The notes under the pieces are model-generated. The model did no database searches. It was not told the DNA's origin and saw only the letters and a program-made list of their open reading frames with translations. Made by a program: the position numbers and the translations under genes. Source: a virus. Taken from it: DNA of 64,000 nt. Shown one piece after another: positions 2,207 through 63,982 of the stretch (within the stretch, counting starts at the first letter, position 1; the number at the start of each line of letters is the position of its first letter). The stretch covers positions 1-64,000 of the IMG/VR virus record IMGVR_UViG_3300039309_000025; one strand, 5' to 3'.

Positions 2207-2586
2207 GCGACGAGTCCCACGTTGTACCGATTAACCTAGCGTCCAAATCAGCCCACAATAAAGAAACCCGGCCTCTGTATAACGAAGAAGGTGAGCAGAT
2301 TGGGATGGCCACCTTGGAATGCGAGATAACCTACTCGCGGGTCATCCAAGCGGGGGAAGACACCTACCTCATGGTGGACGAAAAGAACTGGGATGTAGCG
2401 CGCGGACGGTTTCCCTGGAAGATGACCGCGCGCACCCTCCCTGTGACGGCTCGCAAGTTAGGAATGGCTATGGTGGCCAAAACGGATTACGCTGGCTATG
2501 TTCTGATTGAGATCGGCGAGCATATGTTCGTGGTTCCTGAACGGCACACGGAGGCGCTATGCAGGATGTACCCACAGAACCCATAA
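2203..2586 (+). CDS. Hypothetical protein, plus-strand operon
   Basis: This 127-aa protein starts at GTG within a GTGA overlap with the preceding stop. It is not recognised. The middle (about residues 25-115) looks like a mixed alpha/beta domain with several predicted strands. Codons 4-8 (ESHVV) are written across a copy of the dispersed palindrome at 2214-2227, just inside the gene start. The end overlaps the RusA-like gene by 28 nt. Confidence 0.65.
   Translation: MSDESHVVPINLASKSAHNKETRPLYNEEGEQIGMATLECEITYSRVIQAGEDTYLMVDEKNWDVARGRFPWKMTARTLPVTARKLGMAMVAKTDYAGYVLIEIGEHMFVVPERHTEALCRMYPQNP
2214..2227 (+). promoter_or_regulatory. Dispersed palindrome site 1
   Basis: GTCCCACGTTGTAC, one half-site perfect, located at codons 4-8 of the gene that starts at 2203. 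It belongs to the genome-wide set described in the findings. Confidence 0.75.
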
Positions 2587-2954
2587 CAATTAGATTCTTG
2601 GGGTTCGCATCGAAAAAGAACTTCTGGCGTCCCGGCAAAAACGGTAGAGGAATCTACCTCGACAAGAAGACTCGCGCCTTAGTCGAGCGTATGGAGCTTC
2701 AGGTGCCCGCTGAAGTTAGAGACTTGCGATTGGAAAGCCCTGACATGATCTGGACCTTCCGGTATACCAACGGTCACGCTGACCGCGATGGGATCATGGT
2801 CACAGTACTCGATATCCTACAGAAATATGGTGTGCTGGTCAACGATTCGATCACAAGGTGTAATGGTCTGTGGACGGTTCACCCGGCTGAACGTGGGGAG
2901 TACGATGAAGTTGAGGTGACACTGATACCGAGAGAGCCCCGTGTCCCACATTGA
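2559..2954 (+). CDS. RusA-like Holliday junction resolvase
   Basis: This 131-aa protein follows the RusA pattern: a strand with a basic 'FWRPG' segment at about 22-27, then conserved acids D75, D77, D85 and D96 in the arrangement ADRDG...VLDIL...LVNDS. In RusA the aspartates bind metal and cut four-way junctions, and 'gv..dDs' is the family signature. Its length matches RusA (about 120 aa). A resolvase here would process branched DNA before packaging or resolve recombination intermediates, in keeping with the nuclease at the head of the operon. It overlaps the next start by 14 nt. Confidence 0.75.
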   Translation: MQDVPTEPITIRFLGFASKKNFWRPGKNGRGIYLDKKTRALVERMELQVPAEVRDLRLESPDMIWTFRYTNGHADRDGIMVTVLDILQKYGVLVNDSITRCNGLWTVHPAERGEYDEVEVTLIPREPRVPH

Positions 2955-3240
2955 GCACATCCGAGACAAGTTAGCTAATCTGGAGGTCCGCCAACTACTG
3001 CGGGACGCCTCACGCCGACAGGCTAGCATCTTAAGGAAAGCCTACCGTTTCCGCAAGCTGGGAAGATTCGACCACCTCTTACATTTACAATGTGGGATGA
3101 CCTTGTGCTACGACAGGGCAGGAAAGTTGTGTTGGGCAAGCGCACCCAGAATCACTCAGGATAACAATCAGCAGTGCGAGATGGAGTTCATCTCCGACTC
3201 CGACCCCGCTTTGCCTTCCGTTTCTTCACCACAGAGTTAG
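2941..3240 (+). CDS. Hypothetical protein, last gene of plus-strand operon
   Basis: This 99-aa protein starts at GTG, overlapping the resolvase end. The N-terminal 40 residues are helical and basic (LRDASRRQASILRKAYRFRK), and the tail is acidic and serine-rich. It is not recognised. The first codons cover a degenerate palindrome copy (GTCCCACATTGAGC, 2943-2956). The last 53 nt overlap the convergent gene at 3188-3373, so the two operons collide tail to tail with no visible terminator. Confidence 0.55.
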   Translation: MSHIEHIRDKLANLEVRQLLRDASRRQASILRKAYRFRKLGRFDHLLHLQCGMTLCYDRAGKLCWASAPRITQDNNQQCEMEFISDSDPALPSVSSPQS

Positions 3241-3373
3241 CCGCTCTTATGGCGGCACCCTCTGAGTACCCGCGTTCCAACATGCTGTTCGAAACGTGGC
3301 TCCATTGTCTCTGGGCCTTTCGGCTTTTCGCTTTTTTCGTGTGGCGCTTGGCATCACTTGGTTTCCAGGGCAT
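3188..3373 (-). CDS. Small basic conserved phage protein
   Basis: This 61-aa protein starts MPWKPSDAKRHTKKA and has QW, AN and AIRAAN motifs followed by a strongly basic tail (KKRKAKRGRSRR). I recognise the layout 'MPW...HTKKA...QW...N..L..G..E..AIRAAN' from many small phage and plasmid proteins of unknown function. It is the last gene of the long minus-strand structural run and overlaps the convergent plus-strand gene by 53 nt. The tail suggests nucleic-acid contact. Confidence 0.7.
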   Translation of the reverse strand: MPWKPSDAKRHTKKAKSRKAQRQWSHVSNSMLERGYSEGAAIRAANSVVKKRKAKRGRSRR

Positions 3374-3382
3374 AATATCCTC

Positions 3383-5308
3383 CTAATTGTGACCTGTTAG
3401 GGGCGGATTTTGGATTACGGTGCCGTTCAAAAACTTGGTCCACTTCCGAATTCCGGCCTTATTGCGCCCGAGTGGTTCTACTTCAATGCTCTTGATCTTG
3501 CCGCCGTATCGAGAAAGCATTTTAGAGACATTCGCTGGGGCTTGGTCTGAATCGTATTCGAGGGCACTGATCGTTTTCCCGCTGGCGTCTTTGGCTGTCA
3601 GTCGTATGCCCTCAAGGTTTACTTCGGTGGCCTTCTCGAATATAGATCGCACGGCTTGATGTAGTTCCTGTTGTTCTGACGTCTCGGGAGCGCTGGAGCC
3701 CTTCTGCGCCCCCTCAGTTTTCGGAGGGGCGGTCGCCGATTCGGGCGGAAGATTGGCTAGCGCTCCCGAATCCTTTTCACGTCCTTTTGGAGTCCCACGT
3801 TGTACTTCAGGTGGTGGGGAAGGCTTTTCTCCTGCCTTTAATTTCGCTTCCAGTTCCGCGATCCGCTTATTGTTAGCCGCAATCTTGTCCTCGGGGGATT
3901 CCTTTGCGACAACGGGTTCAGGAGGAAGGGAGGGCTTCCCTGCGGGTTCCCCCGTTTTTGGCATTTCCACCACATTCTGCTTGTGTGGAGGATTTTCCAG
4001 CACACCCATTTTCTCGGGACTCGGGACTGGCAAGACAGGCTCTTTCCCTTGGCTTGCCATGGCCTCCCTACGCACTCCAGAAACCTGAGAACGGCCTATG
4101 GATTCCGGGGTGGGCTCAGGTGGCGGGGCCGCAGTCGAAGCAGTGGCGGGCTTCTGTGGGCCAGCAGCGGGGGTTTCCTGGGAAACCGGGGTAGGAATAG
4201 ACTTCGGGGATGGCTTGGCGGGTGGTTTGGTCTCCTGTACTCGCTCAGGTGGCTTCGCTAAAGGCTTTCCCGCTGCTGGGGTCTTGGCTTGTCGAGCTTC
4301 AAACTTCTTCAGGGCGTCATCAAGAAGTCGTTGCTTTTCCGCTTCGGTGGCGTTGGCGACTTTGTCCCAGGCGGTTTGGGCGGGTGACAGCTTGGGAGAT
4401 TCAGTCTTGGCCTCTGGAGGGGGTGGGGCGGGCGGACCAACAGGACCTTCTGGCCCCTTCGGAGTTTCCACGGTGGGCTTCGCTTCGACTGGAGGCTTAC
4501 CGGCCTTACCGCCTTTGGTCGCTGCTGCAATTAGGGCTATGTCACCTAAAGCGCGAGCGGCCTGCTTTCCGACTTCACGGTAATTACCAGATTGGAGCGC
4601 ATCTGCCGCCTCTGGAAAAGACTGAATAAAGTCATAACTCTGTGCGCCGATAAAGCCAGTTTTTATCATTTTACCTAGAACGTTTATGGCTTTGGCCGCT
4701 CGCGGAAAATTGGCGAGTTTGGATTCCGGTAGCAGTATCGACCCAATAAGAAAGGCTGCGTTGAGCGGAGATGTCATACTGAGTCCGGTGTCGGCCAGTC
4801 CTTCACCTAACCCCGCCGAGAACTCCTGAACATTCTTAGGCGCTCCAGCTACTTTAGGGATTTCCTGGGCAGCCCAAGCGGCACCTTTCTCAACAGCAGG
4901 CTTGACGACTCCCTGTACTACCTCAGACGGCAGAAACGCCAGCCCTGGGAGTACGGAACCGCCGGTCAACTGGTTCTTGATTGCCGTGCCTACCTCGGAC
5001 AAGGAGGGAAAATGTGCTTTGCCGGATGGTTCAGGCGGACTCTCAGGCTTACCGTTGGCGGATTTCGGGGCACCGTCTGACGGCTCAAGGCCCTTGATAC
5101 TGTACAGGTTGTTAAACCCAGGAACGTGCCCTTGCATGTACTGGGCCCATTGTTGTGGGGTTATTTTACCCGGAGTCTCCTTAAGCATCTGCTTGGTGGC
5201 CTGCCGGTAGACGTCGTACTTCGGGTCACCCGATGTCACAGCCTGTTTCATCTTAGTCGCGAACTCTTCTGCGGTGACTTCGCGAGGTTTCTGGGGCTGA
5301 GGGGTCAT
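3383..5308 (-). CDS. Large proline/lysine-rich putative virion-associated protein
   Basis: This 641-aa protein is translationally coupled to the upstream gene (ATGA overlap). Residues 1-75 are a helical region, about 105-250 contain hydrophobic helices with small residues (LPGLAFLPSEVV, AAFLIGSILLPES), and about 255-540 are low complexity, rich in P, K, E and A. The C-terminal 80 residues look folded (VNLEGIRLTAKDASGK). The hydrophobic helices and position next to two other very large proteins fit an internal virion/ejection protein, but no family is recognised. A palindrome copy lies at 3792-3805 within it. Confidence 0.6.
   Translation of the reverse strand: MTPQPQKPREVTAEEFATKMKQAVTSGDPKYDVYRQATKQMLKETPGKITPQQWAQYMQGHVPGFNNLYSIKGLEPSDGAPKSANGKPESPPEPSGKAHFPSLSEVGTAIKNQLTGGSVLPGLAFLPSEVVQGVVKPAVEKGAAWAAQEIPKVAGAPKNVQEFSAGLGEGLADTGLSMTSPLNAAFLIGSILLPESKLANFPRAAKAINVLGKMIKTGFIGAQSYDFIQSFPEAADALQSGNYREVGKQAARALGDIALIAAATKGGKAGKPPVEAKPTVETPKGPEGPVGPPAPPPPEAKTESPKLSPAQTAWDKVANATEAEKQRLLDDALKKFEARQAKTPAAGKPLAKPPERVQETKPPAKPSPKSIPTPVSQETPAAGPQKPATASTAAPPPEPTPESIGRSQVSGVRREAMASQGKEPVLPVPSPEKMGVLENPPHKQNVVEMPKTGEPAGKPSLPPEPVVAKESPEDKIAANNKRIAELEAKLKAGEKPSPPPEVQRGTPKGREKDSGALANLPPESATAPPKTEGAQKGSSAPETSEQQELHQAVRSIFEKATEVNLEGIRLTAKDASGKTISALEYDSDQAPANVSKMLSRYGGKIKSIEVEPLGRNKAGIRKWTKFLNGTVIQNPPLTGHN
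3792..3805 (+). promoter_or_regulatory. Dispersed palindrome site 2
   Basis: GTCCCACGTTGTAC with flanking A/T, inside the coding region of the 641-aa protein where it is read as EVQRGTP. Confidence 0.75.
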
Positions 5309-11176: not shown

Positions 11177-11749
11177 TTAACCCCCAGTCCCACGTTGTAC
11201 TCGCCAGTCCTCCCTAGTCAGGTAGGACATGACGGCGTCGGCAGGAACTCCATGGTACGATGCGAACTTTGGCAGAGGGGGTAAAAAAGTGAAGCCGAGC
11301 CGTCTCCCAAAAATCAGGGTGGCCCGGTTGTCAGCGAGGCTCAAGCCGTACAGGATATCAAGGTTTTCCGTTTCAAACGAATACTCAAGGGTCTTCTCGA
11401 TCAACCGCAAAGGAATCCGGTGGTGCATGTATTCCCTGAATATTACGAACCCGCAATCGGCTTTCCGTCCTCCAGAACCTCCCCGGATGCTCCAGAGCCA
11501 CGCGAGACCGGCCAAGCGTGCTTCATGGGCATCGTTGCGGATAAAACAGCCGAGATAGCGGTTGTCCTTGGCTTCAAGCCACCCGATGAACTCTTTGAGA
11601 GTGGGGACGTGGCTGAAGAAGACTGTCTCCAGAAGGTTATCGGCCTCCATCTGAATATAGGCTCTGGCCATCAAACTCTGAGAAATGTCGCTGGCTACGA
11701 ACACCTCTGGGTGCGCTTTTATCTGGAGTACGCTGGTAGCGGTAGCCAT
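11177..11749 (-). CDS. GNAT-family acetyltransferase-like protein
   Basis: The 190-aa protein from the ATG at 11749 (a TTG at 11803 would add 18 residues) matches the GNAT fold in order: strands with LAGLAWLWSIRG, then a GFVIFREYMH segment where the acetyl-CoA loop belongs, then LSLADNRATLIFGRRLGFTF, the usual 'N..a...y.k.GF' end. The canonical R/Q-x-x-G-x-G/A loop is not clear, so activity is uncertain. Similar proteins occur between tail genes of many phages, possibly as structural or modification enzymes. Confidence 0.65.
   Translation of the reverse strand: MATATSVLQIKAHPEVFVASDISQSLMARAYIQMEADNLLETVFFSHVPTLKEFIGWLEAKDNRYLGCFIRNDAHEARLAGLAWLWSIRGGSGGRKADCGFVIFREYMHHRIPLRLIEKTLEYSFETENLDILYGLSLADNRATLIFGRRLGFTFLPPLPKFASYHGVPADAVMSYLTREDWRVQRGTGG
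11187..11200 (+). promoter_or_regulatory. Dispersed palindrome site 3
   Basis: GTCCCACGTTGTAC with flanking A/T. It encodes the last residues (VQRGT) of the GNAT gene and lies 14 nt upstream of the ATG of the next gene (11173). Confidence 0.8.
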
Positions 11750-12891: not shown

Positions 12892-15800
12892 CAGCCGCCG
12901 CCTTCCCCGAGAGTCATCATTTCGCTGAAGGTGATTTGTTTGTAAACCGCGTGCCGGTCAGATCCCAAGTATAGAAGTTCCAAGCCGCTCCCTTCCGCAA
13001 AAAACATAAACGGCGATGAGGAGTCCAACTGGACCCGGTAAGTCTTAGACTTGTTCAACCCGCTCCCCCATACGCTAGGGAGAAGGAATCTCTCCTCTGA
13101 ACGGGTAGCGTGGGCAGGAAGTGTTACTTCAAACGTGCCAGTGTCAGAAATAAGCGTCAGCGTCACCGGCGCCGGACACAGGTACTTCCACCATCCCTGC
13201 TTGACCAATTTCCAAAACTTCCAGCCACATGTCTGCTCGTAGCTATCCCAGTGGGTGACGGCGGCTGGCTCTTTGACGTGATCGAGACTCCAGTCCCAGA
13301 GTTTGAAGGCCCCATTCGGGATAATCACTAATCGCCACTGCGTCCCACTCAGATTCGATGGGCAGGCTACCACAACCCTACGGTTGTCATAGGTGGTGTT
13401 CACTGGGAAGGTGGCGACTGTCCCAGCTTCGCCAGTTTGTAGATTGACTCCGGCTAAAGTTCCTTCTGTGTCTACGGTTAGAATTAGATTTCTCGCCAAC
13501 TTTAAGAACGGCCACCCGAACGAGTTCCACGGCGTACACAGTATGCTGTCAGGAGGATCTGGGGAGTTCTCCTGGTTGAATGGTGCCCAACGGGAAACTC
13601 CCCAATTATAGACTTGGGATAGTCCTCCACTACCAGCCGTAACAAGCAGTCTCCACATCTTTCCGAAGACGTCCACCGGAAGCGCGTAATTGACCTTTCG
13701 ACTTGTAACTACACCAGTGTGGGAGAAGGAGAAGACCGAGCCATTCTCGTTTTCAAGAACGATATTCGCGGCGATCCCTCCCGTGTTCGCATCCAACCAA
13801 ACCCAAGTAGGGTTCTTGTCATCCGGGGTTTCAGCGTCACGCCACGGTAACCACAATATCTGGGTCGGAGGGGCTTGAGATGTTCCCTCTGTAAACGGCG
13901 TCCATCTTGCTAGTCCCCAATCGAACACCTGTGCTTTACCCTTCGTTCCCGGCGTTAGAATAAGCCGCCACATCTTACCGAACGTGTCTGCTGGTATCGG
14001 GTAAGAGTTCTTGCGGTTGTCCACCGTTCCCGTATGCGTAAATGGGAACACATCTCCAGTCTCGTTTACCAACTGACATGCACAAGCGATGTTAGCCGTG
14101 TCCATATCAACCCAGACCCAAGTCGGGTTTTCCTCGACTGGTCCCTGTGCTGGCTTCCATGGGGTTGAGTAGATGATGTCCGCAGGATAGTCCGTCTTGT
14201 CGAAGGTGTACTTCCACTGCTTGAAACCGATTGGCAGAGGGGTTGTGATTGGATACAGACGGATCAATTTGGCAATCGTATCCACAGCGATGGGGAAGGT
14301 ACACTTGCTTCTGTCGCCAGTCAGCGTAAACTGTCCCACGTTGGACACCAGCGTTCCACCACCGATTCCATTGATGATGTCGAGTTGCAGGACTACGTTA
14401 GTGCCCGTAGCGGCAAGCGACAGATCCCATTCGACCGTCACTGTCCTCAAATACTTGTCGTAACCATGCCCGAGATCATCCCAATCTCCAGAGTGAACCA
14501 CGTCGGCCTTGTCCGCCTTCTGGAAAGAGAACCGATGGCTGAACAATTGAAACATCCCGCCGTCAGTGGCAATCGAGGTTTGAGTGGTGTCCACAAATAA
14601 CCGCCACTTTTTACCGATCAGTCCAGGGGGTATGGTGATGTTTCTGCGCCGGTCTTTTTCTGTAGTGGTTACAGTGAAGGTCCAGGGATTTCCACCAATC
14701 ATCACATTCGCTCCGTCTGCCTGGACGTTAACGGTGACCGGCCAGTTATTCGTATTCACTTCCAGGTCAATCTGGTTGGCGTATTTGTCGTACTCGTATC
14801 CGTCGTCCTCCCAAGGGGTATAGGACACAATGTCGGGCGGGTAATCCTCCTTTTCAAAGTCCACATTCAAGATGCGGAAGAAGAACGTGGAGGCCGTATT
14901 GAGAGTGAACCCACCCTCAGGACCCCCAAGAGCAATGGGCCGCAGGCGAACTTCCTTGACAATGGTTCCATCGGCTATCGGGAACGTCTTCAATGTCCGA
15001 CCAGCTCCGCTGATGTCGGCAGTGAGGAGGGTAAACGACTGGACAGCTTCTCCGTACAGGAAAGAATCGCGTCCCGTGAGGACGTCCATGACGATGGTTT
15101 GGTCAATTCCCCGAATAACGTCAAACTCCACCGTCATTTGGTAAAGCCGCTTGTCGTACTTATAGCCAAGGTTCATCCAATCAGTAGCCCCGCTGGTCGT
15201 CTGGATGCCAACGTCGTAATACTTCATGACCAGCGAATAGAAGGTCATTCTGGCCGGATAAGCTTGACCATAGATTCGATACGAAAAGGCCCTCGCTTCC
15301 TGACCATAAACCGTGGGTGGAGTTCCAGCAACCATGCCGGGGAGAAGCGAAATTAACTTTCTTCCAACAGTGCTGCCCGATTGGTAGTCGCTGAGGGGAA
15401 GAGTCACCGTGATCGTATTCACTGCCACATCGGAATAGTTCAACAGGATGTCGATACTTAGAGTCGCGGTTGCAGTATTCCCGGTGACATCGAGATCAAG
15501 CAAGGCTTCCTGTAGTACCTTCTGTGATTCAGGAGAGCCGAAATCAAACCACGGCAGAGAGACCGAGAATGCGATGGGGCCTCCCTGCGTCGTTGGATCG
15601 GTCGTAAATGAGTCGCTAGTGAAGTTATAGTACGCGACGGTGGGCGGAAATCCAGGAACAACAGTGACTGGCACGATGGTTTCCTGGTCGTGCATCACGA
15701 ACGATACGTTATCCAGCCCGGTCACTGACTCGATCATCATGCCAGTATCGGGTTCCGTGTAAGCGACAAAATCCAGATTGAATCCAACACTTACAAACTC

Positions 15801-22900: not shown

Positions 22901-23941
22901 CGGGCCGCTGGGCTGGCTGGTGATGTAGCCCGTTCCCGAGTGAACGGTGTCGTAAACGATGATCGGCTGATTAGCCGAAAACAACGTCGTGAAGGAGGTC
23001 CCTGTTCCGGTGACGGTAGCACCGCTTGTTGCCACCGTCCCGAGTCCGGCGAGCGCCGCTTGTCCGCCGACAATTGCCGAGGTGAAACTCGTAGGAGAGC
23101 TGGAGGTTTTGCCGCCCTGTCCGGGGCACCCCGAGGTGGTGTCGTTTCCGCTGGCGTCCAAACATAGCGGGGTGCCTGCCGACCCCGACACTGTTCCCGC
23201 CATTTGAACTTTATTCGTATACGTTCCCTGCGAGTTACCATTGAGCAAATTGGCAAGTCCGCTCGCCGCAGTGGTACCACCCGTGCCGCCCTGGCCTACG
23301 AGTAACGGAAAACTAAGGACGAAGCACCCCGAGGTGGTGTCGTTTCCGCTGGCGTCCAAACATAGCGGGGTGCCTGCCGACCCCGACACTGTTCCCGCCA
23401 TTTGAACTTTATTCGTATACGTTCCCTGCGAGTTACCGCTCAAGAGATTTGCGAGTCCTGTGGCGGCGGTAGTCCCCCCGGTTCCTCCCTGAGCAAGGGT
23501 TAACGGAAAACTAAATGCCCCTACTCCGGTTGAAAAGAAGGGGGTTCGCAGGGCCGTGTAAGTCACCACGGCATTGCCAGTGATTGCAATCTGGATGTAC
23601 TTGTGGTTCCCGTTTCCGTAGGCGATAGGCGGGCTGCTCGATTGAGTTATCTGTGAGGCCGTCCCATAACTCGTCCATGGACCCGAACAGGATACATCGG
23701 AGTAATTGAGGGCAACGGTCCAAGTGCCAGACCCGGAGACAACGCCAACAGAGTGGTAATAGTTGGAGCGTGAAATTGCCGACACATTGGACACCACACC
23801 AGGGCATCCAGGGATTTCTCCCGCCCAGCTAGAACTGATTCCGTAGATGACCGTTTGCAGGACAGCCTGTTGCACGGACTGTGCGAACAGAAGTCCCACG
23901 TGGGACGCCGCGAGGAGGGATATCAGGGCAAGTTTGCGCAT
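19901..23941 (-). CDS. Secreted large tail-spike-like protein (beta-helix)
   Basis: The 1346-aa protein from the ATG at 23941 (GTG at 23947 is an alternative; AGGAG precedes the ATG) begins with a signal peptide ending ...GLLFA-QS at about residue 21. Residues about 150-270 contain two near-identical 'LAQGGTGGTTA(A/T)GLANLL.GNSQGTYTNKVQ' fibre modules made by a 114-bp DNA duplication. The centre (about 640-1090) holds a beta-helix domain introduced by SIYMPDGDYHIYTP, a typical spike entry motif. A glycine run and a jelly-roll-like C-terminus (TWYLQLACVPATG) follow. Adjacent spike at 17961 is translationally coupled. A palindrome copy lies inside the signal-peptide codons. Confidence 0.78.
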   Translation of the reverse strand: MRKLALISLLAASHVGLLFAQSVQQAVLQTVIYGISSSWAGEIPGCPGVVSNVSAISRSNYYHSVGVVSGSGTWTVALNYSDVSCSGPWTSYGTASQITQSSSPPIAYGNGNHKYIQIAITGNAVVTYTALRTPFFSTGVGAFSFPLTLAQGGTGGTTAATGLANLLSGNSQGTYTNKVQMAGTVSGSAGTPLCLDASGNDTTSGCFVLSFPLLVGQGGTGGTTAASGLANLLNGNSQGTYTNKVQMAGTVSGSAGTPLCLDASGNDTTSGCPGQGGKTSSSPTSFTSAIVGGQAALAGLGTVATSGATVTGTGTSFTTLFSANQPIIVYDTVHSGTGYITSQPSGPDELGIQSIGSIVTFFGGATTTGLSKGDVICSTIYGGTLNNAPGQCWTIYQVVDTYHVTTQHTMYPQVGAGQYACNIVVAANVGYVTCNSPHGLASGANVTIAGTGNSSLNGTYSITNEPAFFTNDPTSSYNFEITTSGVANGFYASDSITLSGVTPTPHLSCSITSNVATCTSLQWPGFTVGDSVYYVNGSTGTCADMNGAHTITGVGTGDYPKTFTFATSGVSNGTCADTAVLIGAGWTYQHHPQRSVVQSVTNNTTLTVSPSFSPDFPAGATYQYAPDNSAAVAAACSLGTSIYMPDGDYHIYTPASAPFHIATCTGFSQEWAMSGGARFVLDNQQNADGFYFEGGTRAKFTNWTVDGLWVWTTRAVVTSEAPLAFQIQDAYYPTVTNFRSTGGTGNVLISQFNDHPLIQGVQCLNVAGCLLSNGDVDLVASDLQVTNSSDESISIHNAPGGIDQERGATVSNFTVKNGENIDTTQLSNVAWSNGLLEGMVDDPVRQAPYNPTNSSISYSNIIIRGGGMAGPQCRWLGCTANFYLGSNPFVQMTNVQILSTNPQSMMGGIVDWAAIGNTSTLQLSNVTISGGPSYGVNAYVNRLEVSNSYFENLDDIGLSETSSGLVSVNGLTLRDVARKWGAGAGSFYGGPNYALALGVTTEFHVRNLTILDDQSTPTGYKIFEYGIGTIGEFDNLTSTITNGALAWNMNSEGNPGKIFVHSYQPQTYSQISQLTANGQIGNGSKMYCSNCTIGACSTSGTGSDVTWVAGAAVCGGGSGGGGGGGSVNVNGSAVTSPNFNGTTPAAASGYQNATFQVSGSNVSAEIPVSTTTDLREFKCLSQLGVAGCNFSFAAGTNQVQFNPHAGLTNNIFGQVDFLGAATGTQAAVVFQTQLSNSWTSVTFDLEWLTTATSGAATWYLQLACVPATGASLDPAWDSARSYTSTAQTTASYSNAIGPQTLTLPSACVAGTPGPMLFGRIYRNGSDTLGSSATASLLSARLTIVHP
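23126..23239. repeat. 114-bp direct repeat, copy 1 (in spike gene)
   Basis: Identical to 23324-23437, 198 bp (66 codons) apart, so the reading frame is kept. It encodes a duplicated fibre module with 'NSQGTYTNKVQMAGTVSGS'. Confidence 0.9.
23324..23437. repeat. 114-bp direct repeat, copy 2 (in spike gene)
   Basis: Second copy of the repeat at 23126-23239. The 100% identity suggests a recent duplication or ongoing gene conversion. Confidence 0.9.
23893..23906. promoter_or_regulatory. Dispersed palindrome site 5 (perfect)
   Basis: GTCCCACGTGGGAC, a perfect 14-bp palindrome within the first 20 codons of the large spike gene, read as SHVGL inside the signal peptide. Confidence 0.85.
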
Positions 23942-28266: not shown

Positions 28267-28280
28267 GCCCAACGTGGGAC
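28267..28280 (-). promoter_or_regulatory. Dispersed palindrome site 7
   Basis: On the minus strand GTCCCACGTTGGGC, one mismatch from consensus at the outer edge. It begins in the TAG stop codon of the gene at 28280-28468 and is preceded by TATA, giving TATAGTCCCACG. Confidence 0.75.
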
Positions 28281-41292: not shown

Positions 41293-41306
41293 GTCCAACG
41301 TTGGAC
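41293..41306. promoter_or_regulatory. Dispersed palindrome site 10 (at promoter start)
   Basis: GTCCAACGTTGGAC, a perfect palindrome variant. It lies just downstream of the -10 box at 41314-41319, over the expected transcription start of the gene at 41275. Confidence 0.82.
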
Positions 41307-43033: not shown

Positions 43034-44503
43034 TCAGAAAAGCGTCGAGGCGAGTTTGAAACAGGTCCGGGGGCTTGGCACCATTAGATTTGAGCCGCTA
43101 AGGAACTGGCCGCTCACATCGATCGAGTTGTTCACGCCCTTGAATCCGGTAAACCCGAATTGAAACAGGTCTACCTGGGAGAAGTACCACTCCACGTAGG
43201 CCGTGTTCAATCCGAACATCTTGCCGATCGGCGAGCTACCCGAAGGAAGATACCGCGAAATGACCACATCGGCGGCATTGAACCTGAAGTTCTGGAATCC
43301 CACGTTGGCCAGATCGTTGTCTTTATTCTCATACCGCATTGCAGGCTGCGTGCCCTGCCAGATCAAGTTCCAGCCGTTCTGTGTGACCACTATCAGGTCC
43401 GGGTGATCCGAGCCCCAACAGGCGTTTCCATAGGCCGTGTTGAGTTGTGCCAAGGTGAACGTGGTCACCGTGGCCTGATAGGCATTCAGCCCGCCAACGG
43501 TGCCAGTCGTCAAACCATTGATATCGGTTCGGTTCTGGCCGCCGACTTGGGAGTAATTTGTTCCGTCGTCGATCCACTCATCAAATCCGTTCAGGTATTT
43601 AGCCCGCGCACCCTGCCCGTTCTGGTACATATTGACGGCCAGGATCTTCGCCATCTTCAATGAGGCGTTGAGGAACTTCATCTCTACCTGATTGAAAATC
43701 GCCTCTTGGCCATCGTCGTTCATCGCGTCCCATCCGTATAGCGTGATGTTTACCCACGCTACCTTCAGGTCCACCGTGATCGCCGCGTCGGTCGTAACGA
43801 AGTTGATGTCCATCGTTTCGCCCTTGCCCATAAAATCGCCGAGGAGTTCCCCAACAATCACGGGCCTCCTTACGCGGCTGTTGCCCGCGAATCGTTCTGC
43901 TCTCTGCTGACTGAGCCTAGTAAATGCAGGATCTGCACCGTAGATGATCGTTCGTGTTGCGACCGGGTTCGCTATTCCCGGCCTTCTCACACTTTCATGT
44001 GAGACCAGACCATATCATCACCCCGAAGGGTGCCGCGCGCTTCCGAGCACTTGCCCGTACTCCCCGAAGGGATGGCCGTTGAACGTTCCCATTTCTGGGC
44101 TTCGCTGCTGATTACCCCGAAGGGCTTCCCAGCAATTCACGCGGTTTTCGAGGCGGCTTTCACCGCCAAGGGACTATCAGTTAATCCGTTGTCTTCTCTA
44201 CGATGTAATCGTACACATCCTTGATGTTGCGACCGGGTTCGCTATTCCCGGCCTTCTGCAAGTTTCCCAGCAGAGCAGATCATCTCATCGGCCCGCTTCG
44301 GGTCGCCTCGCGCTTCGGGCCGCTTGGCCCTACTCCCTCTCGGGATGATCGTTGAACCTTCCGACTCTCGTCGGCTTGGCTGCTGATTGCCTTGCCCGCC
44401 AATTCGGGTTTAGGTGTCCCAGCAATTCACGAGGTTTGCATAACCGATCTCTCGGCTAAGGCCCTATGTCTAAGGCGTCCAGCTCCGTTAGCTGCAAGGC
44501 CAT
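43034..44503 (-). CDS. Major capsid protein, split by two group I introns
   Basis: Exons are 44473-44503 (31 nt), 44184-44218 (35 nt) and 43034-43948 (915 nt). Spliced, they give one 326-aa frame starting MALQLTELDAYVYDYIVEKT, with AGGAGG 9 nt before the ATG. Exon 3 (unspliced 318-aa frame from 43990) is HK97-like in outline: an N-arm, GELLGDFMGKGETMDINFVTTD, a helical region with 'IFNQVEMKFLNASLKMAKILAVNMYQNGQ', and a beta-rich end. The introns, spliced as predicted, join the frame without any change. Endonuclease VII lies divergently upstream. Capsid identity rests on position between scaffold and head genes plus fold pattern. Confidence 0.8.
43297..43310. promoter_or_regulatory. Dispersed palindrome site 11 (weaker)
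   Basis: ATCCCACGTTGGCC, 12 of 14 match, inside the capsid third exon, read on the minus strand as ANVGF. Confidence 0.55.
43949..44183 (-). ncRNA. Group I intron B (235 nt) in capsid gene
   Basis: P1: GGAUU (exon/intron junction) pairs AGUCC with a U-G at the cut. P7: GGCCA (in GTTCAACGGCCA, 44073-44084) pairs with UGGUC (CCAGACCATATC on the plus strand, 44005-44016). P10: UGAU in the guide pairs with AUCA at the 3' exon start (43948-43945). P-like AATTGCTGGGAA and Q-like AATCAGCAGC are present. The last base is G (43949). There is no ORF inside. It shares 33 identical bases (43955-43987) with intron A. Confidence 0.85.
44219..44472 (-). ncRNA. Group I intron A (254 nt) in capsid gene
   Basis: P1: GCCUU pairs AGGGC, with U-G at the splice site. 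P10: ACAU in the guide pairs with AUGU at the 3' exon start (44218-44215). P7: GATCA (in TTCAACGATCA) with TGATC (S element GATGAGATGATCTGC). This P7 differs from intron B by two compensated changes (GGCCA/UGGUC), so it is covariation. Q-like AATCAGCAGC is present. No ORF. The 33-nt 3' hairpin (44225-44257) is identical to intron B. Confidence 0.87.
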
Positions 44504-44552: not shown

Positions 44553-44558
44553 AAACGT

Positions 44559-47483: not shown

Positions 47484-47497
47484 GTCCCACGTGGGAC
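47484..47497. promoter_or_regulatory. Dispersed palindrome site 12 (perfect)
   Basis: GTCCCACGTGGGAC, flanked A/T to give the perfect 16-mer AGTCCCACGTGGGACT. It lies between two convergent genes and overlaps the TGA of the minus-strand frame ending at 47498. Confidence 0.9.
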
Positions 47498-49727: not shown

Positions 49728-49741
49728 GTCCCACGTTGGGC
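49728..49741 (+). promoter_or_regulatory. Dispersed palindrome site 13
   Basis: GTCCCACGTTGGGC, 13 of 14 match, in the intergenic gap upstream of the 33-aa peptide gene. Confidence 0.7.
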
Positions 49742-55130: not shown

Positions 55131-55634
55131 CTATTCCTCGACCGGCTTGGTCTTCTCGTACTCCACGGGGGTGGCAACCAGATCCACCACTCTGCGAGCT
55201 GGTCCTAACTGGCGGGTTTCCTGTTCGTCAGCCAACATGCGGAAGATAGCGTCCGGTGTAGCCAGCCCCTTGGAACCTGAGGCGCTGATATTGGCTGTCT
55301 GATTATTGTTGTTCTGTTGGACGTTGACAACCGTGCCCGCCTTGCCACCTTCTACTAAGCCGTACATCTGGGCCACAAGTCTCATCGCCGCCACATCTCC
55401 CGCTTCTACGCTAATCTCCAAGTTATGGAATAACTTAAATAGGTGCTTGATGGCGTGAAAGGCCTGGATTTTCCCTTGAATGGAACGGCTGGAGAGGTTC
55501 TTGGCGGTGACCTTGATGCCAGCGAATTTCTCGGGAATAACCAGTGGGGGAGCGGGGTTCAACGTGGGACTGCTGGCAACCTGCTTGATCTGGGTTGCGA
55601 TGGGGGTCACTTTCGGCTTCTTTTTGTCCGCCAC
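55131..55634 (-). CDS. terS: Putative terminase small subunit
   Basis: This 167-aa protein starts at a GTG 6 nt after a -10 box. It is helical in the middle (IQAFHAIKHLFKLFHNLEISVEAGDVAAMRLVAQMYGLV), as in small terminases, and has Asn/Gln repeats (NVQQNNNNQTANI). Position just before TerL and size fit TerS, but no helix-turn-helix is obvious, so the assignment is from context. Palindrome site 15 lies at codons 22-26, read as PTLN. Confidence 0.6.
   Translation of the reverse strand: MADKKKPKVTPIATQIKQVASSPTLNPAPPLVIPEKFAGIKVTAKNLSSRSIQGKIQAFHAIKHLFKLFHNLEISVEAGDVAAMRLVAQMYGLVEGGKAGTVVNVQQNNNNQTANISASGSKGLATPDAIFRMLADEQETRQLGPARRVVDLVATPVEYEKTKPVEE
55557..55570 (-). promoter_or_regulatory. 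Dispersed palindrome site 15
   Basis: Minus strand GTCCCACGTTGAAC, near the start of the small terminase gene, about 65-80 nt downstream of its promoter. Confidence 0.75.
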
Positions 55635-56463: not shown

Positions 56464-56474
56464 CTATTTGCCCT

Positions 56475-56846: not shown

Positions 56847-56912
56847 CGTCTCTCTCTCCTAAACATGTGGCGTCCGTCCATTCGATCTTGCTGTGGCTGT
56901 CCCATCTACTTC

Positions 56913-57881
56913 CTAACCTCCTGGCCTGGGGGGAACCAGCCGTGAATTGGCCACACTCTGATCCCTCAAGGATGACTGCAAAATCGAATCCTCATGCTTA
57001 GAAGCTCTAGGGTCGGATATGGACCGAAAACCTTTTTGCATCTGCCCTTCTTGCTTTGTAAGCCGGTCGCCCATCGGAAGGTTGTCAGTGTCGAAATTTC
57101 CAATCTCCCTTAATGGAGGGGAATCACCGATCTCCGCCGGAGACATGTACTTCGGGCGGGGCTTGTACATTGCCTTCAATTGCTCCAGGATTTCATCGAG
57201 CGCCGCGCTAATGTCCTGCTTTTCGTCGTAGACGCTGAAGGTCTTGCGAGCTACCAATAGGCCAAGAGATGTAGGCTGTCCTTCAACAGCTCCCCCGCCA
57301 GCACTATCCGACACGGCATCGTGCTTGTAGGTCAAATGAACCAGTCCCATCCCGGCCTGGTTGAGGACATTCTTGCGCGCCCGTAAAGTCAACTTTCCTT
57401 CCAGCCCCCTCGGCTCGAATTCGATGTAGTCCGGTGAATTATCGTTAATAAGAGCAATCAGATCCGACACGTCCCACTTAGGGTTTTCCGTTAGGTTTGA
57501 TGGCCTTTTTCCTGTGACTGCCCGCCTGCGGACGGTTCCCGCCGTGAATACCTTACGCTTTATATCGGCGGGCTTATGCTCGTCGAATCCCGGATCTCCC
57601 GGCATTAAAATTACGCTCTTGGCCTCTCCGGGGTCCGTAGCAACGTCTTTATGGAGCACCACGGCTCCCAGTGGCGGGGGAGGGTGAACGTCCAACGTGG
57701 GACTCGGCACGCCCGGTGGAACCGTGGCAATACCGGATTCCTCCGTGTTCATGTCATAGAGCATTTCCACCGTGTCCACCACGTCCTCGGTGAGTAGAAT
57801 AGAGTCCTGGGTCTTCTTCAGCCCACGGTCGAGGGTCTTCTGAATGTAGCGGGCGAACTTATCCTTGAGTGCTTGGTCCAT
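56913..57881 (-). CDS. Hypothetical protein, possibly DNA- or packaging-associated
   Basis: The 322-aa frame starts at ATG 57881 (AGGAAGC upstream; 57971 is a longer, less likely start). Residues 1-45 are helical (KFARYIQKTLDRGLKKTQDS), then a proline-rich linker, an RKVFTAGTVRRRAVTGKRPS basic patch, and a beta/helix domain (SDLIALINDNSPDYIEFE..GLEGKLTLRARKNV). Not recognised. It has a palindrome copy (57690) in the coding sequence and an inverted repeat in its leader. Confidence 0.6.
   Translation of the reverse strand: MDQALKDKFARYIQKTLDRGLKKTQDSILLTEDVVDTVEMLYDMNTEESGIATVPPGVPSPTLDVHPPPPLGAVVLHKDVATDPGEAKSVILMPGDPGFDEHKPADIKRKVFTAGTVRRRAVTGKRPSNLTENPKWDVSDLIALINDNSPDYIEFEPRGLEGKLTLRARKNVLNQAGMGLVHLTYKHDAVSDSAGGGAVEGQPTSLGLLVARKTFSVYDEKQDISAALDEILEQLKAMYKPRPKYMSPAEIGDSPPLREIGNFDTDNLPMGDRLTKQEGQMQKGFRSISDPRASKHEDSILQSSLRDQSVANSRLVPPRPGG
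57690..57703 (-). promoter_or_regulatory. Dispersed palindrome site 16
   Basis: Minus strand GTCCCACGTTGGAC, in the proline-rich part of the gene at 56913-57881, read as SPTLDV. Confidence 0.75.
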
Positions 57882-58613: not shown

Positions 58614-59156
58614 TCAGACTTGATCCTTCATTCTTGCGTTTGGCTCGTATACTAAAGTCTTCTTGGCCCGGTCCATGGCTTCTGCCCAATCTACCCCGTA
58701 ACGTCGCCGGATTCCTTCCGCCCGTTCGCGGAGTTCCGCCTCCTGATCGGTCATGTCCGTGTAGCCGCTTCCATCTCCACCCAGAATCTTAGTCAACCAG
58801 TTGGTCTGGCTCCTGGTGAACTTCTCGAAGGAGAGGGACAGGGAATCCAGGGCGGCGAGTTGCTTGGATGCTTGATCTGTCCGCTCGACACGCCCGCCAA
58901 CAAGACCATCACGAACTAAAGCGAGATTGTCGTTGATCGTTGAAAGATGCGTTCGGGTTATGCCCGCCTGCTCCTGGATGGCTGCGTTCACTTTGCAAAT
59001 CTGGTCGCGGATCTCGGTGAACTCCAGCGATGGCTGGTACACCGTGGGACTGCGCATGACCCTCACGGTGGAGAGTACCATCTTGTAGACGGCCACTACC
59101 ACCGCGATCGCCACGATCCCGTAGCCAATCCACGACATCAAGACTTGCAGCGTCAT
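58614..59156 (-). CDS. Membrane-anchored coiled-coil protein
   Basis: This 180-aa protein has an N-terminal transmembrane helix (WIGYGIVAIAVVVAVYKMVL) followed by a long helical/coiled region (AAIQEQAGITRTHLSTINDN, DQASKQLAALDSLSLSFEKF). The start is fixed by an ATGA overlap with the upstream gene. It could be a holin-like or membrane-adapter protein. It contains palindrome site 17 (59037-59050), read as SPTVYQ. Confidence 0.7.
   Translation of the reverse strand: MTLQVLMSWIGYGIVAIAVVVAVYKMVLSTVRVMRSPTVYQPSLEFTEIRDQICKVNAAIQEQAGITRTHLSTINDNLALVRDGLVGGRVERTDQASKQLAALDSLSLSFEKFTRSQTNWLTKILGGDGSGYTDMTDQEAELRERAEGIRRRYGVDWAEAMDRAKKTLVYEPNARMKDQV
59037..59050 (-). promoter_or_regulatory. Dispersed palindrome site 17
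   Basis: Minus strand GTCCCACGGTGTAC, 13 of 14 match to the GTCCCACGTTGTAC form, in the membrane-anchored protein gene. Confidence 0.65.
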
Positions 59157-59730: not shown

Positions 59731-59894
59731 TGCTTTGGATGCTCCTTCCAATACTTCGCCGTTGCTATAATGGTGTACCCATCTTGGTCTTCGACATTTT
59801 CCCAGCGCCCTGTCGAGATCAAGAACTTCTTCGCCTCATCGTAGGTCATCCCCATTGCTATTTCGAAATCGCTGGGCCTTTGCTCGGGCTTCAT
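59727..59894 (-). CDS. 55-aa small protein
   Basis: The protein starts MKPEQRPSDFEIAMGMTYDE and ends YWKEHPKQ, with a helix-turn-helix-sized acidic/basic pattern. Start codon is within the ParB-like gene stop (ATGA), and its stop is within the next start (ATGA), so translational coupling on both sides supports it. Not recognised. Confidence 0.62.
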   Translation of the reverse strand: MKPEQRPSDFEIAMGMTYDEAKKFLISTGRWENVEDQDGYTIIATAKYWKEHPKQ

Positions 59895-60716: not shown

Positions 60717-60730
60717 GTCCCACGTTGTAC
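60717..60730 (-). promoter_or_regulatory. Dispersed palindrome site 18 (at ParB-like promoter)
   Basis: Plus strand GTCCCACGTTGTAC, 7 nt upstream of the ParB-like ATG. It overlaps the predicted transcription start, so autoregulation of the ParB-like gene is plausible. Confidence 0.85.
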
Positions 60731-60734
60731 TCGA

Positions 60735-60763
60735 TCTATAGGGTACGCGGAGTCAAGAGTGAA
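60735..60763 (-). promoter_or_regulatory. Candidate promoter of the ParB-like gene
   Basis: TTCACT (60763-60758), 17 nt, TATAGA (60740-60735), then site 18 at 60717-60730 covering the expected start point. The hexamers match consensus at four and five of six positions. Confidence 0.6.
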
Positions 60764-60776
60764 GTCAAGAGGTGTT

Positions 60777-61077: not shown

Positions 61078-61081
61078 GGCC

Positions 61082-62604: not shown

Positions 62605-62627
62605 GTTTCAGCGCACAGGGGAGTCAA

Positions 62628-63035
62628 CTATATAATTCCCTTGACTTTCCTGGGGACCACCCGTCTGACCGGCTTGGATGGATCGGAGATCGGGCCGGAG
62701 ACCATGCGATTGTCGATCTCGGCATTCCCCAGTTTCGGCAGTTCCCCCGTGACTTTCTCGATCGTCTCCGCGATATGCGCCTGAGCTTCGGTTACGGCCA
62801 CCGGAAGGTCCGGTGCCGGGATGTCCCACGGCATCTCCAGATCTTCACCGTCGAATGCCGTCGATTCCACCGGGGTCTCGGCAGGGGAACTCTCCGCAGA
62901 CTTGATTGGCCTTCCGGCTCCCCTCTTCCTTTTTCTGGGGACGTCCCACAGAGGCGACCCGCACTCCGCACAACGTTTCGGAGTTTCCAGGGTAGAGTCG
63001 AAGTCCTCTTCGCAACGAATACAGTGGTAGGTCAT
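62628..63035 (-). CDS. Zinc-ribbon, AT-hook-like protein
   Basis: This 135-aa protein has N-terminal YHCIRCEEDF and RCAECGSPLWD, a Cys4 zinc ribbon, then RKRKRGAGRPIK, an AT-hook-like GRP motif. The rest is acidic and proline-rich (EMPWDIPAPDLPV). Possibly a DNA-binding regulatory or packaging-accessory protein. The end GGIIT-stop (TAG) sequence ATTATATAG matches a motif upstream of the 56083 gene. Confidence 0.7.
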   Translation of the reverse strand: MTYHCIRCEEDFDSTLETPKRCAECGSPLWDVPRKRKRGAGRPIKSAESSPAETPVESTAFDGEDLEMPWDIPAPDLPVAVTEAQAHIAETIEKVTGELPKLGNAEIDNRMVSGPISDPSKPVRRVVPRKVKGII

Positions 63036-63039
63036 TTAC

Positions 63040-63525
63040 TTATGTACCCTCCCTGATTCGCTTGGCGGCTTCCTTCAAGACGTCCCGCCACCCAATGCAG
63101 GAATCTGGTTTATTCCCGGAGACCATCGTGTCTAGAATCTTTGCGCAGCGCTCGGAGATCACTTCACGACCATCAAGCAAAGTGATCCTCTTTTCCGTAA
63201 CCTTCTTAATCATGCGTTTCCTCTTGTTTCCATTGTTCCGCCTCGCCTTCCCGGACGCCCTCTCCACGGTGAGCAACTCGAACTCCTCGGGGGATATGAC
63301 CTTATCGATCTCGACAAATTCGATCGGGCCATCCTCATTATTAATCGACGCTACAAATGGCCAATCGTCAGTGAGTGAGTCCGTCCGAAGTCGATCTCGG
63401 AACCAACAGCAGCCGTCTTCTACTGCGATCTCCAAGTTGAGTTTCGCACCTTCCTCTTGGATTAGATTCCAAAAACGCGCCACGCGCTTAGCGCATTCAT
63501 CAGTCGCTATTCTGATCGATTTCAT
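63040..63525 (-). CDS. Hypothetical protein
   Basis: This 161-aa protein has AGGAGGACCAATC before the ATG. It is alpha/beta with a basic central segment (SGKARRNNGNKRKRMIKKVTE) and 'LLDGREVISERCAKILDTMV'. Possible nucleic-acid binding. Unrecognised. It starts within the end of the upstream gene (26-nt overlap). Confidence 0.6.
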   Translation of the reverse strand: MKSIRIATDECAKRVARFWNLIQEEGAKLNLEIAVEDGCCWFRDRLRTDSLTDDWPFVASINNEDGPIEFVEIDKVISPEEFELLTVERASGKARRNNGNKRKRMIKKVTEKRITLLDGREVISERCAKILDTMVSGNKPDSCIGWRDVLKEAAKRIREGT

Positions 63526-63982
63526 GATTGGTCCTCCTAGGAGCCTCGATCATCTTGAACTTGGTCTCGGTCAGCCATTGGTACAACGTGGTACCGGAAG
63601 CGTTGACCACACGGTAGGGCAAATACACCTCAGCGGCGGAAACCATCGAGGTTTGGATCATGGCGTTCTGCGCCTGCACCCACCTCAATAATTGCCTCCA
63701 GGCAATTCGCTCGGCGTCGCGCATGGCTTTCTCGCGGAAGTCCGCACGGGGCCGCTTGGCTCTGGCTTCGAGCAGCCGGAAGACCGGCTCGATCCTGACC
63801 GGCATGTCGAACAGAACATCCTTCTCGCCGATGCGCATCACCCACCGCAGGCCGGAAACCCTGCCGTCTTTGTAATCCGTGTTGACCGCCGTTGCCCCGG
63901 AACTCACCAGTTCGCCCACAATCTCACTGACTGTCCGCTGAACGGAGACGCCGGTGGTTTCCATGAAAATCGCTTTGCTCAT
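63500..63982 (-). CDS. Conserved phage protein of unknown function
   Basis: This 160-aa protein contains 'FDMPVRIEPVFRLLEARAKRPRADFREKAMRDAERIAWRQLLRWVQAQNAMIQ', a pattern seen across many phages ('mPvri..vf.ll.....r......aervAWRqLlrWvqaqlali'), followed by VYLPYRVV. The role is unknown. Palindrome site 19 (63581-63594) lies within it, read as TTLY. Upstream partial gene overlaps its ATG (ATGA). Confidence 0.7.
   Translation of the reverse strand: MSKAIFMETTGVSVQRTVSEIVGELVSSGATAVNTDYKDGRVSGLRWVMRIGEKDVLFDMPVRIEPVFRLLEARAKRPRADFREKAMRDAERIAWRQLLRWVQAQNAMIQTSMVSAAEVYLPYRVVNASGTTLYQWLTETKFKMIEAPRRTNHEIDQNSD
63581..63594 (-). promoter_or_regulatory. Dispersed palindrome site 19
   Basis: Minus strand GTACCACGTTGTAC, 13 of 14 to the common form, inside the gene at 63500-63982. 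Confidence 0.65.

Follow-up and report, generated by a model that had tools for sequence, protein, structure and literature searches.

Dispersed palindromes along a phage genome and a ParB-family protein as their probable reader

The 64-kb stretch of viral DNA analysed here (the window) carries a 14-bp near-palindrome, GTCCCACGTGGGAC, at places scattered along its length, which raises the question of what such an array does and which protein reads it. The sites and the gene discussed below are listed in Table 1, in window coordinates.

The array in the window and across the phage genome

All 19 motif places named in the preliminary description were present, with a single coordinate correction (32240 to 32239). 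The three copies described as perfect were exact matches to GTCCCACGTGGGAC, and the copy at 41293 was confirmed to be a variant word that is perfectly palindromic. When up to 3 mismatches to GTCCCACGTGGGAC were allowed, 20 matches were counted in the window (3 perfect, 4 with one mismatch, 9 with two, 4 with three) against 3.73 expected, and the maximum in 100 dinucleotide shuffles at the same threshold was 10. The one match additional to the 19 listed places is at 26793 and has 3 mismatches. Pairing was found at 10 or more of the 14 positions in 17 of the 19 sites, and at 8 positions in the other two (43297 and 59037).

For the coding control, a weight matrix derived from the same 19 sites was applied to 200 codon-preserving shuffles, in which intergenic bases were randomised too: 19 matches were counted in the real window and a mean of 2.34 (maximum 6) in the shuffles. 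Comparable counts in such shuffles, which had been named beforehand as speaking against the array, were absent. Copies within genes are read in several frames, as first described: SPTLD at 57690, S(N/H)VG at 14333, 23893 and 32239, ANVG at 43297, and VQRGT at 3792. The 3-mismatch places (26793, 43297, 59037 and 63581) are each doubtful as single sites, because the chance expectation is 3.73 and the shuffle maximum 10; the claim that such a family would almost never occur by chance stands for the whole set and falls for its weakest members. Chance or coding bias could account for these 3-mismatch members, which lie at chance level. For the set as a whole this explanation is refuted by the shuffles and by the positional conservation (see below), and its probability is close to nil.

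Over the whole phage genome (G001, ~96.4 kb), 31 sites were found. They also cover the recombination and replication regions, beyond the structural genes, so that an array "on the whole structural region" was too narrow a description. A mean spacing near 3 kb had been estimated correctly (3.4 kb in the window, 3.1 kb across the whole phage); even spacing as a design feature was rejected (P = 0.11 in this phage; borderline in G033, P = 0.046). The gene maps are heuristic and coding fractions are thus approximate: 5-6 of the 19 window sites were intergenic, depending on the map. Sites were enriched between genes in G000, G033, G034, G025 and G046 (P 0.025 to 6e-6; 30 of 31 sites counted in G033, with site 100722 omitted, and the weak match 5312, one of 12 in G034, dropped here and kept in the positional-conservation test). 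No intergenic enrichment was found in G040 (3/22, P 0.38).

Table 1. Palindrome sites and the parB gene in the window
Feature	Position	Strand	Context
Site GTCCCACGTTGTAC	2214..2227		Motif match
Site GTCCCACGTTGTAC	3792..3805		Within ORF 3383-5308
Site GTCCCACGTTGTAC	11187..11200		13 b upstream of first start codon of ORF 10553-11173
Site GTCCCACGTTGGAC	14333..14346		In 1682-aa ORF; codon position shared with G034 (PWM 17.2) and G033 (PWM 11.8)
Perfect site	23893..23906		Near start of ORF 19901-23947; retained in G034 and G033
Site GTCCCACGTTGAAC	26699..26712		Gene junction
Site GCCCAACGTGGGAC	28267..28280		Intergenic
Site GTCCAACGTGGGAC	29165..29178		Matches G033 site position
Site GTCCCACGTTGGAC	32239..32252		Coding; retained in G033 in G033 dialect, lost in G034
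Perfect variant palindrome	41293..41306		7 b after TTGACC-17-TACCAT promoter-like element; G033 site coincides
Weak site	43297..43310		Within major-head-protein gene; retained in G033, weakly in G034 (PWM 8.3)
Perfect site	47484..47497		Intergenic, after portal gene
Site GTCCCACGTTGGGC	49728..49741		Intergenic; missing from aligned L093 stretch
Perfect site	51781..51794		Gene junction; retained in L025, G034 and G033; missing in L093/L094
Site GTTCAACGTGGGAC	55557..55570		Near start of ORF 55131-55634; missing in L094
Site GTCCAACGTGGGAC	57690..57703		Coding; 14/14 in G034, 13/14 in L095, lost in G033
Weak site GTACACCGTGGGAC	59037..59050		Coding; not retained in G034
parB, 272 aa	59891..60709	-	ParB_N domain, HTH and unassigned C-terminal part; GFHR (GxxR) motif
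Site GTCCCACGTTGTAC (GTACAACGTGGGAC on gene strand)	60717..60730		7 b before parB ATG, at expected transcription start
parB promoter region	60731..60768	-	Tandem TTGACT elements, TATAGA/TACCCT, upstream of site 60717
Site GTACAACGTGGTAC	63581..63594		Not retained in G033

Positions and dialects in related phages

Weight-matrix searches of two related phages gave arrays of 31 matches (G033) and 12 matches (G034) with a drifted consensus; the ParBs of these phages are 42-48% identical to the window ParB. Copies proved to be conserved in position, the check proposed in the preliminary description: 5 of 9 mappable sites in G034 and 7 of 16 in G033 are shared with the window phage, against circular-shift means of 0.14 and 0.31, respectively, and none of 1000 shifts reached the observed values. 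In codon-aligned comparisons, 4 of 12 showed site loss; five site-relative pairs fell in alignment gaps (11187, 59037 and 81191 in G033; 55557 in both relatives), and no homologous ORF was found for the remaining sites. The G033 copy of site 32239 has taken on the dialect of G033, with a glycine-to-alanine change. The major head protein, whose gene holds site 43297, is itself highly conserved in G034. A G040 site in a different dialect maps 12 b from window site 11187, and none of the 4 mappable G025 sites coincides with a G001 site. On the 66.6-kb contig of G038, neither ParB nor array was found; its structural genes are related. The words of the window, G033 and G040 phages are GTCCCACGTGGGAC, GTCCAACGTTGCAC and ATGTCCGAATTCGGACAT.

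The exact word is held by 64 stretches of IMG/VR, 22 of which match the window by blastn; two others (L012 and L023) derive from one contig of this phage, and for L025 the match came from a translated search. By translated search the remaining 39 of 64 showed no similarity to the window phage, and the single copies in most of them are estimated to lie at chance level for a 14-mer in a collection of this size. Among these 39, one separate contig kind (L039/L059/L064) carries 2-3 intergenic copies. Records G001-G011 were chosen for the exact word, so a match in 11 of 11 carries no test value.

The ParB-family protein and the promoter sites

The protein encoded at 59891-60709 belongs to the ParB family: ParB_N, GxxR and HTH are all present. 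ParB_N was matched at 34.6 bits (curated cut-off 26.3) and phrog_1033 ("ParB-like partition protein") at 4.6e-18. The GxxR motif (P motif) of the ParB family (PMC12704722) occurs in 3 of 3 ParBs (GFHR at residue 66 of the window ParB; GFHR and GFNR in two relatives). An AF2 model from a 17-sequence alignment (mean pLDDT 78.9), superseding a 3-sequence model (pLDDT 58.1), places HTH helices after the N-domain at residues 110-122, 131-138 and 142-150; its C-terminal third, where a dimerisation domain would be expected, is of low confidence, and residues 1-4 are below pLDDT 50. Residues 7-152 align with KorB 8qa9 (Z 13.1, 3.4 A, 136 residues). Over the N-domain, the model also aligns to ParB and Noc (Foldseek match to Noc structure 7nfu), and the KorB/Noc alignments extend to residues 152-153. 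Structural Z scores were computed for Foldseek's own matches; the highest was sulfiredoxin (13.3 over 78 residues), which ties with KorB because the N-domain fold is common to both.

All four phages of this type (G000/G001, G033, G034 and G039) have a site where parB transcription is expected to start, the ParBs of the three relatives being 34-48% identical to that of the window; neither G040 nor G046 has an array site directly upstream of parB. In G001, the site at the recombination-operon promoter (75596, window-frame) has a strong promoter-like element (P 0.001), as does its homologous site in G034 (28265). Of the G001 sites, 3 of the 14 between genes and 1 of the 17 in coding sequence overlap promoter-like elements at P < 0.02; by group, overlap was above random for intergenic sites (P = 0.005) and not above random for coding sites (P = 0.26). 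The majority of sites have no recognisable promoter. Sites serving solely as promoter operators were rejected as an explanation, since just a minority fit promoter-like elements.

We propose that the palindromes are probably loading sites for the phage's own ParB, acting like Noc or KorB and without ParA. The HTH dimer would recognise the palindrome. Once bound there, the protein would close its N-terminal ParB fold, with CTP as the probable ligand, and the resulting clamp would slide away from the site; from one site per ~3 kb, clamps would coat the entire phage genome. ParB at the site of its own promoter would repress parB, ParB at the recombination-operon promoter (75596, retained in G034) may repress early genes, and ParB at the many sites within long operons may organise the genome or dampen transcription.

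The array had been called stoperator-like or parS-like. The latter is well supported by the ParB-family gene, the promoter site in four phages and the GT..CACGTG..AC layout; parS is TGTTTCACGTGAAACA, a palindrome with a CACGTG core. The window phage thus shares the CACGTG-core palindrome and the ParB fold with chromosomal ParABS/parS, and differs from it in that no ParA and no ParA-binding motif were found and the sites are dispersed. The same evidence bears on partition of the plasmid type, in which the sites would be centromeres of a plasmid-like prophage. The ParB family and the parS-like sites fit such a role; a ParA-like gene (PF13614) was found in 0 of 7 records (the G001 and G033 genomes seem to be closed and the remaining five records are fragments; the control matched in 14 of 14 genomes), the ParA-binding motif [LFI]G[KR]G[LFI] in 0 of 3 ParBs, and the sites are not clustered near an origin or par operon. 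We consider partition very unlikely.

Noc/NBS of Bacillus subtilis is closer in layout: a ParB-family protein outside a parAB operon that spreads from genome-scattered sites (PMC8429893; PMC12704722). Unlike Noc, the protein here is phage-encoded and has a different site, present every ~3 kb of the phage genome rather than across a chromosome. An orphan ParB with dispersed sites is a Noc-type feature, and we infer that this ParB binds these sites. Noc-type proteins also have an N-terminal helix for membrane targeting, and KorB has KorA as a partner that locks its clamp. The OB operator of KorB (plasmid RK2) differs from the window palindrome. KorB, described as a ParB-family clamp and a repressor of a mobile element (PMC11790492), is the best two-domain structural match (8qa9); unlike in the KorB system, most sites of the window phage lie away from recognisable promoters. 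ParB-only phages such as Lacachita likewise carry a ParB-like gene without parA, and no array is reported in the available text (PMC10286716); close homologs of the Lacachita ParB are annotated as methyltransferase-type, and its architecture therefore probably differs from that of the window ParB.

Stoperator-like immunity, in which a repressor at dispersed sites halts lysogen transcription and gives superinfection immunity, has a similar layout: cluster A mycobacteriophages are described as having dispersed genome-wide sites in genome-specific dialects, one of them lying at the gene for the regulator itself (PMC6550527). For this layout the term stoperator-like is apt; for orientation it is not. 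Cluster A stoperators have a different binder and are described as asymmetric (PMC6550527; PMC9283540) and predominantly in one orientation relative to transcription (PMC6550527), whereas near-palindromes carry no such orientation, and an orientation test was inapplicable to sites of which 17 of 19 pair as given above. The protein here has a ParB fold, in contrast to the repressor of stoperators, for which a monomer of two domains reading an asymmetric site is described (PMC9283540); a search for a tyrosine integrase found none. This kind of immunity is unlikely in our judgement, and it overlaps with ParB loading, since ParB could itself be a stoperator-type repressor.

Arrays of other palindromes and their possible readers

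The de novo palindrome scan covered whole or near-whole records, with reversed words and order-2 shuffles as controls; noise in GC-rich DNA had made an earlier scan of single loci unusable. Other phages proved to carry arrays of their own palindromes, spaced much as in the window phage: G046, a ParB phage otherwise unrelated, has its own array; G025, a relative (contig not closed), has 20 sites of a different palindrome; and Tunturi_1, a cultured phage with a complete genome, has a weaker array with 8 exact copies of GTCC-N6-GGAC (word GTCCAATATYGGAC). Besides G000, G033 and G034, arrays occurred in 2 of 5 ParB-bearing records (G040 and G046; no clear array in G041, G043 or G045). Counts were not above shuffles in G038 (5 versus at most 6), G043 (6 versus 7) and G045 (3 versus 7; 60 of 62.5 kb covered), and were uninterpretable in G041 (70% GC; 19 versus 17 in shuffles; 60 of 64.4 kb covered). 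No clear array was seen in Salisaeta phage SSIP-1, MW202898 or MW202545 (50 of 57 kb covered).

ParB was not detected among all ORFs of at least 60 aa on the unclosed G025 contig (Pfam/PHROG scans covered 23 selected ORFs), nor in the complete genome of Tunturi_1, so that some arrays of this kind must be read by something other than ParB. A serine recombinase-like ORF was read by eye in G025 (L110:12208-12897). As arrays do exist without a recognisable ParB, the window array could likewise be read by a different protein. If a further conserved phage protein read the array, with the parB promoter as just one target, arrays without ParB would be explained. The best candidate is a 263-aa protein (95508-96299, window-frame) whose gene adjoins dnaB; it has a Tunturi_1 match (gp51, a possible relative; E 0.0019) and is also found in G025, G033, G040 and G038. 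Three non-structural G001 ORFs match Tunturi_1, namely 44541-45266 (endonuclease-like, E 5.5e-4), 65402-65827 (to a methyltransferase, E 3.8e-6) and 95508-96299, the only one found in G025. However, its link to Tunturi_1 is weak, G038 has the gene yet no array on its 66.6-kb contig, G046 has an array and no homolog was found there, and the G034 fragment yielded no copy of the gene. Searches of PHROGs and PDB gave no match to the protein, no Pfam match passed the cut-off, and profile comparison showed no similarity to ParB (hhalign probability 0.2). We hold this reader to be rather improbable. A single universal reader was rejected, as neither ParB nor the 95508 protein accounts for all the genomes.

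A host protein, differing between hosts, would also fit the arrays without detectable phage ParB (G025 and Tunturi_1). Against it, four phages carry a site at the promoter of their own parB, and G038 has related structural genes and no array; we give this reading a very small chance.

Our preferred reading for the window phage thus remains ParB loading, and on balance we lean towards a whole-genome class of such arrays: a palindrome of ~14-18 bp every ~3-5 kb, with old positions, changing dialects (GTCCMACGTKGGAC, GTSCAACGTTGSAC, ATGTCCGRATYCGGACAT, GTCTGKATMCAGAC, GTCCAATATYGGAC, ACCTTCKKATMMGAAGGT) and ParB clamps without ParA. Some members would be read by another protein, and the array would serve to coat the infecting genome, to give it structure or to regulate it globally. 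Such an organisation of a phage genome would be one not described so far.

To our knowledge, the targets of phage ParB-fold proteins outside parAB operons are rarely known. Proteins of this kind are described as widespread and frequently encoded by mobile elements (PMC12704722). Here the genome sequences of several phages show the likely target directly, at conserved positions and in changing dialects, and the binding specificity and role of an orphan phage ParB are therefore directly testable. Tunturi_1 provides a cultured system in which to look for readers of such arrays other than ParB.

Extent of the array in the phage genome

The preliminary description had placed a near-palindromic 14-bp word at 19 positions of the window. 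The word or a near copy was found at all 19, the copy listed at 32240 lying at 32239. With up to three mismatches allowed, 20 matches were counted in the window, against 3.73 expected (largest count in 100 shuffles: 10). A symmetric weight matrix was derived from the 19 window sites themselves, all of which scored at least 12; because it was built from the same sites, independent tests carry more weight. The codon-preserving shuffle proposed as a control gave a mean of 2.34 matrix matches (n = 200, maximum 6), against the 19 window sites.

The window belongs to an IMG/VR virus record of 65,989 bases, and the same phage is present as a 96,503-base record (G001, offset 13 bases). The end of G001 appears to repeat its start over about 127 bases, so the genome is probably a closed circle of ~96.4 kb. 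The same matrix gave 31 sites in G001: 19 within the window and 12 outside, the latter running through recombination and replication genes. The suggested mean spacing near 3 kb held across G001 (3.1 kb on average); the evenness of spacing was not significantly above random (P = 0.11). Site centres fell within genes in 17 of 31 cases, against a coding share of ~89% (heuristic gene map). Gene junctions are thus favoured, yet more than half of the sites lie in coding sequence.

Coordinates of features (window frame unless another record is named)
Feature	Position	Strand	Remarks
ParB-family gene	59891-60709	-	
Site at recombination-operon promoter	75596 (in G001)		P = 0.001
Site at recombination-operon promoter	G034: 28265		P < 0.001
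Sigma-70-like factor of relative G025	L110: 14694-15500		
Repeats, ~90-base shift	56467-56851; G001: about 69.4-69.9 kb		related copies elsewhere in genome
Repeats ~198 bases apart	23126-23514		
Portal-gene stretch, 169 bases	48204-48372		repeated at 58193-58361 (95% identity), within small ORF 58058-58381
Adjacent pair of group I introns	43986-44193; 44256-44482	-	
ORF adjoining the introns	44541-45266	+	matches Tunturi_1 endonuclease
TnpB/OrfB-type genes	37-1122; 61498-62604	-; -	PHROG transposase; Pfam OrfB_IS605 and Cas12f1-like TNB; several related ORFs in relatives G038 and G025

Conservation of the sites in relatives

Three relatives encoding ParB were compared: G034 (51 kb; ParB 48% identical to that of the window) and G033 (103 kb; 42%), reached through scans with the terminase and portal, and G039 (18 kb; about 34-37%, nearly full length), reached through an alignment-based ParB scan. 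The word occurs in genome-specific forms, here called dialects: G034 had 12 matrix matches with a consensus of about GTCCMACGTKGGAC, G033 had 31 with the drifted consensus GTSCAACGTTGSAC, and G039 had three places within one mismatch of a looser pattern. Sites were also present in two further species known from short contigs alone (the L093 group and L025). At the gene junction that holds window site 51781, where nucleotide alignment ends, L025 carries a perfect copy of the word; this site is absent from L093 and L094. In three contigs unrelated to the phage (L059, L064 and L039), perfect GTCCCACGTGGGAC words, two to three per contig, are spaced by ~0.8 kb and seem to precede genes.

Translated alignments mapped nine of the 12 sites in G034 and 16 of the 31 in G033 onto G001. 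Conservation of many copies in related phages was borne out: five and seven of those mapped, respectively, lay no more than 30 bases from a site in G001 (circular-shift means 0.14 and 0.31; observed counts reached in 0 of 1000 shifts). In codon-aligned comparisons within genes, the site was kept (matrix score of at least 8) in eight of 12 and lost in four (32239 and 59037 in G034; 57690 and 63581 in G033). Two of the eight, at 43297 in a highly conserved head protein, could reflect protein conservation. At 32239 the word in G033 is of the type characteristic of that genome, and the encoded protein has alanine in place of glycine; at 57690, G034 has the identical word and the majority of neighbouring codons differ. 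Identity over the 14 bases was only moderately above the gene background (Fisher P = 0.009 and 0.022), so the coding sites give good but not overwhelming evidence of conservation.

A ParB-family protein as predicted reader

The 272-aa window protein scores 34.6 bits for a ParB_N domain, above the cut-off of 26.3, and has a PHROG match to 'ParB-like partition protein'. The first Foldseek matches of its AlphaFold model (17 sequences, mean pLDDT 78.9) were ParB, Noc, PadC and KorB chains. KorB 8qa9 aligned to residues 7-152 (Z 13.1, 3.4 A, 136 residues; VIA-align 2); sulfiredoxin tied with it (Z 13.3 over 78 residues; VIA-align 2), because the N-domain fold is common to both. The GxxR motif was present in three of three ParBs and the ParA-binding motif in none of the three; neither ParA (PF13614) nor tyrosine integrase (PF00589) was found in any of the seven records searched.

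A palindrome ends 7 bases before the window ParB start codon, directly after a promoter-like element. All four phages (G001, G033, G034 and G039) carry a site where transcription of parB is expected to begin, with promoter scores above random positions (P = 0.018, P < 0.001, P = 0.007 and P = 0.002, respectively), and G001 and G034 share a second site at the recombination-operon promoter (P values of the promoter scores in the table). Because the majority of sites lie away from recognisable promoters, they are unlikely to serve solely as a classical operator set. The ParB-family gene, the parS-like palindromes, the site at its own promoter in four phages and the KorB/Noc-like fold together make ParB the most likely reader in the window phage. 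The putative clamp would load at many sites and then slide, as do Noc and KorB, described as such clamps in passages of PMC8429893 and PMC11790492; a clamp of this kind would fit the ~3-kb spacing. The putative coating may serve structure, protection or global repression.

Other words, other readers and novelty

Near-palindromic 14-mer families were counted de novo with the reversed word as control, a procedure that also recovers the known words. Arrays were found in G040 (83 kb; ParB 40% over the N-terminal part; GTCCGRATYCGGAC, 21 copies), the otherwise unrelated G046 (74 kb; ParB about 29%; CTTCKKATMMGAAG, 19) and G025 (96 kb; terminase about 40%; GTCTGKATMCAGAC, 20), each against 0 for the reversed word; the highest of eight order-2 shuffles per genome gave 6, 8 and 6, and mean spacings were 3.7, 3.4 and 4.9 kb, respectively. 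Despite the different word, two of nine mappable G040 sites lay no more than 30 bases from a site in G001 (P = 0.008); none of four did in G025. No array exceeded shuffles in G038, G043 or G045.

Searches of G025 with Pfam, PHROG, P0001 and a profile made from 17 ParBs found no ParB, and no end overlap was found in the contig; the region upstream of the terminase, the place of parB in other phages, is present and contains, with other genes, the sigma-70-like factor. Tunturi_1, a cultured, complete phage of an acidobacterium (L267 and L271), shows a less pronounced array built from words resembling GTCCAATATYGGAC: eight exact GTCC-N6-GGAC, against 0-4 for seven control words. In a separate count the word family reached 8, against at most 5 in six shuffles. 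Four of the eight are GTCCAATATYGGAC; seven start GTCCAAT and the eighth GTCCAAG. Thirteen places lie within two mismatches of two seeds. Profile and P0001 searches of this genome at E 10 detected no ParB-like ORF, and HTH-only and C-terminal profiles gave chance-level scores only. Since both genomes carry arrays, a recognisable ParB is not required for them. A widening profile search matched three non-structural G001 ORFs to Tunturi_1, of which only a 263-aa protein beside dnaB is also in G025; it is present in G038, which has no array, and absent from G046, which has one.

In the open-access titles and abstract openings found for phage ParB or dispersed palindromes, no such array was described. 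The main text of a ParB-fold survey (PMC12704722) contains neither 'dispersed' nor 'genome-wide', and that of the Tunturi paper (PMC11924767) does not contain 'ParB'. The authors of a 2023 paper write that they know of no characterised phage with a ParB gene alone (PMC10286716). Orphan ParB with dispersed sites is rated as an already known kind, of which the phage array is a variation; there is a reasonable chance that arrays that change dialect form a class of their own.
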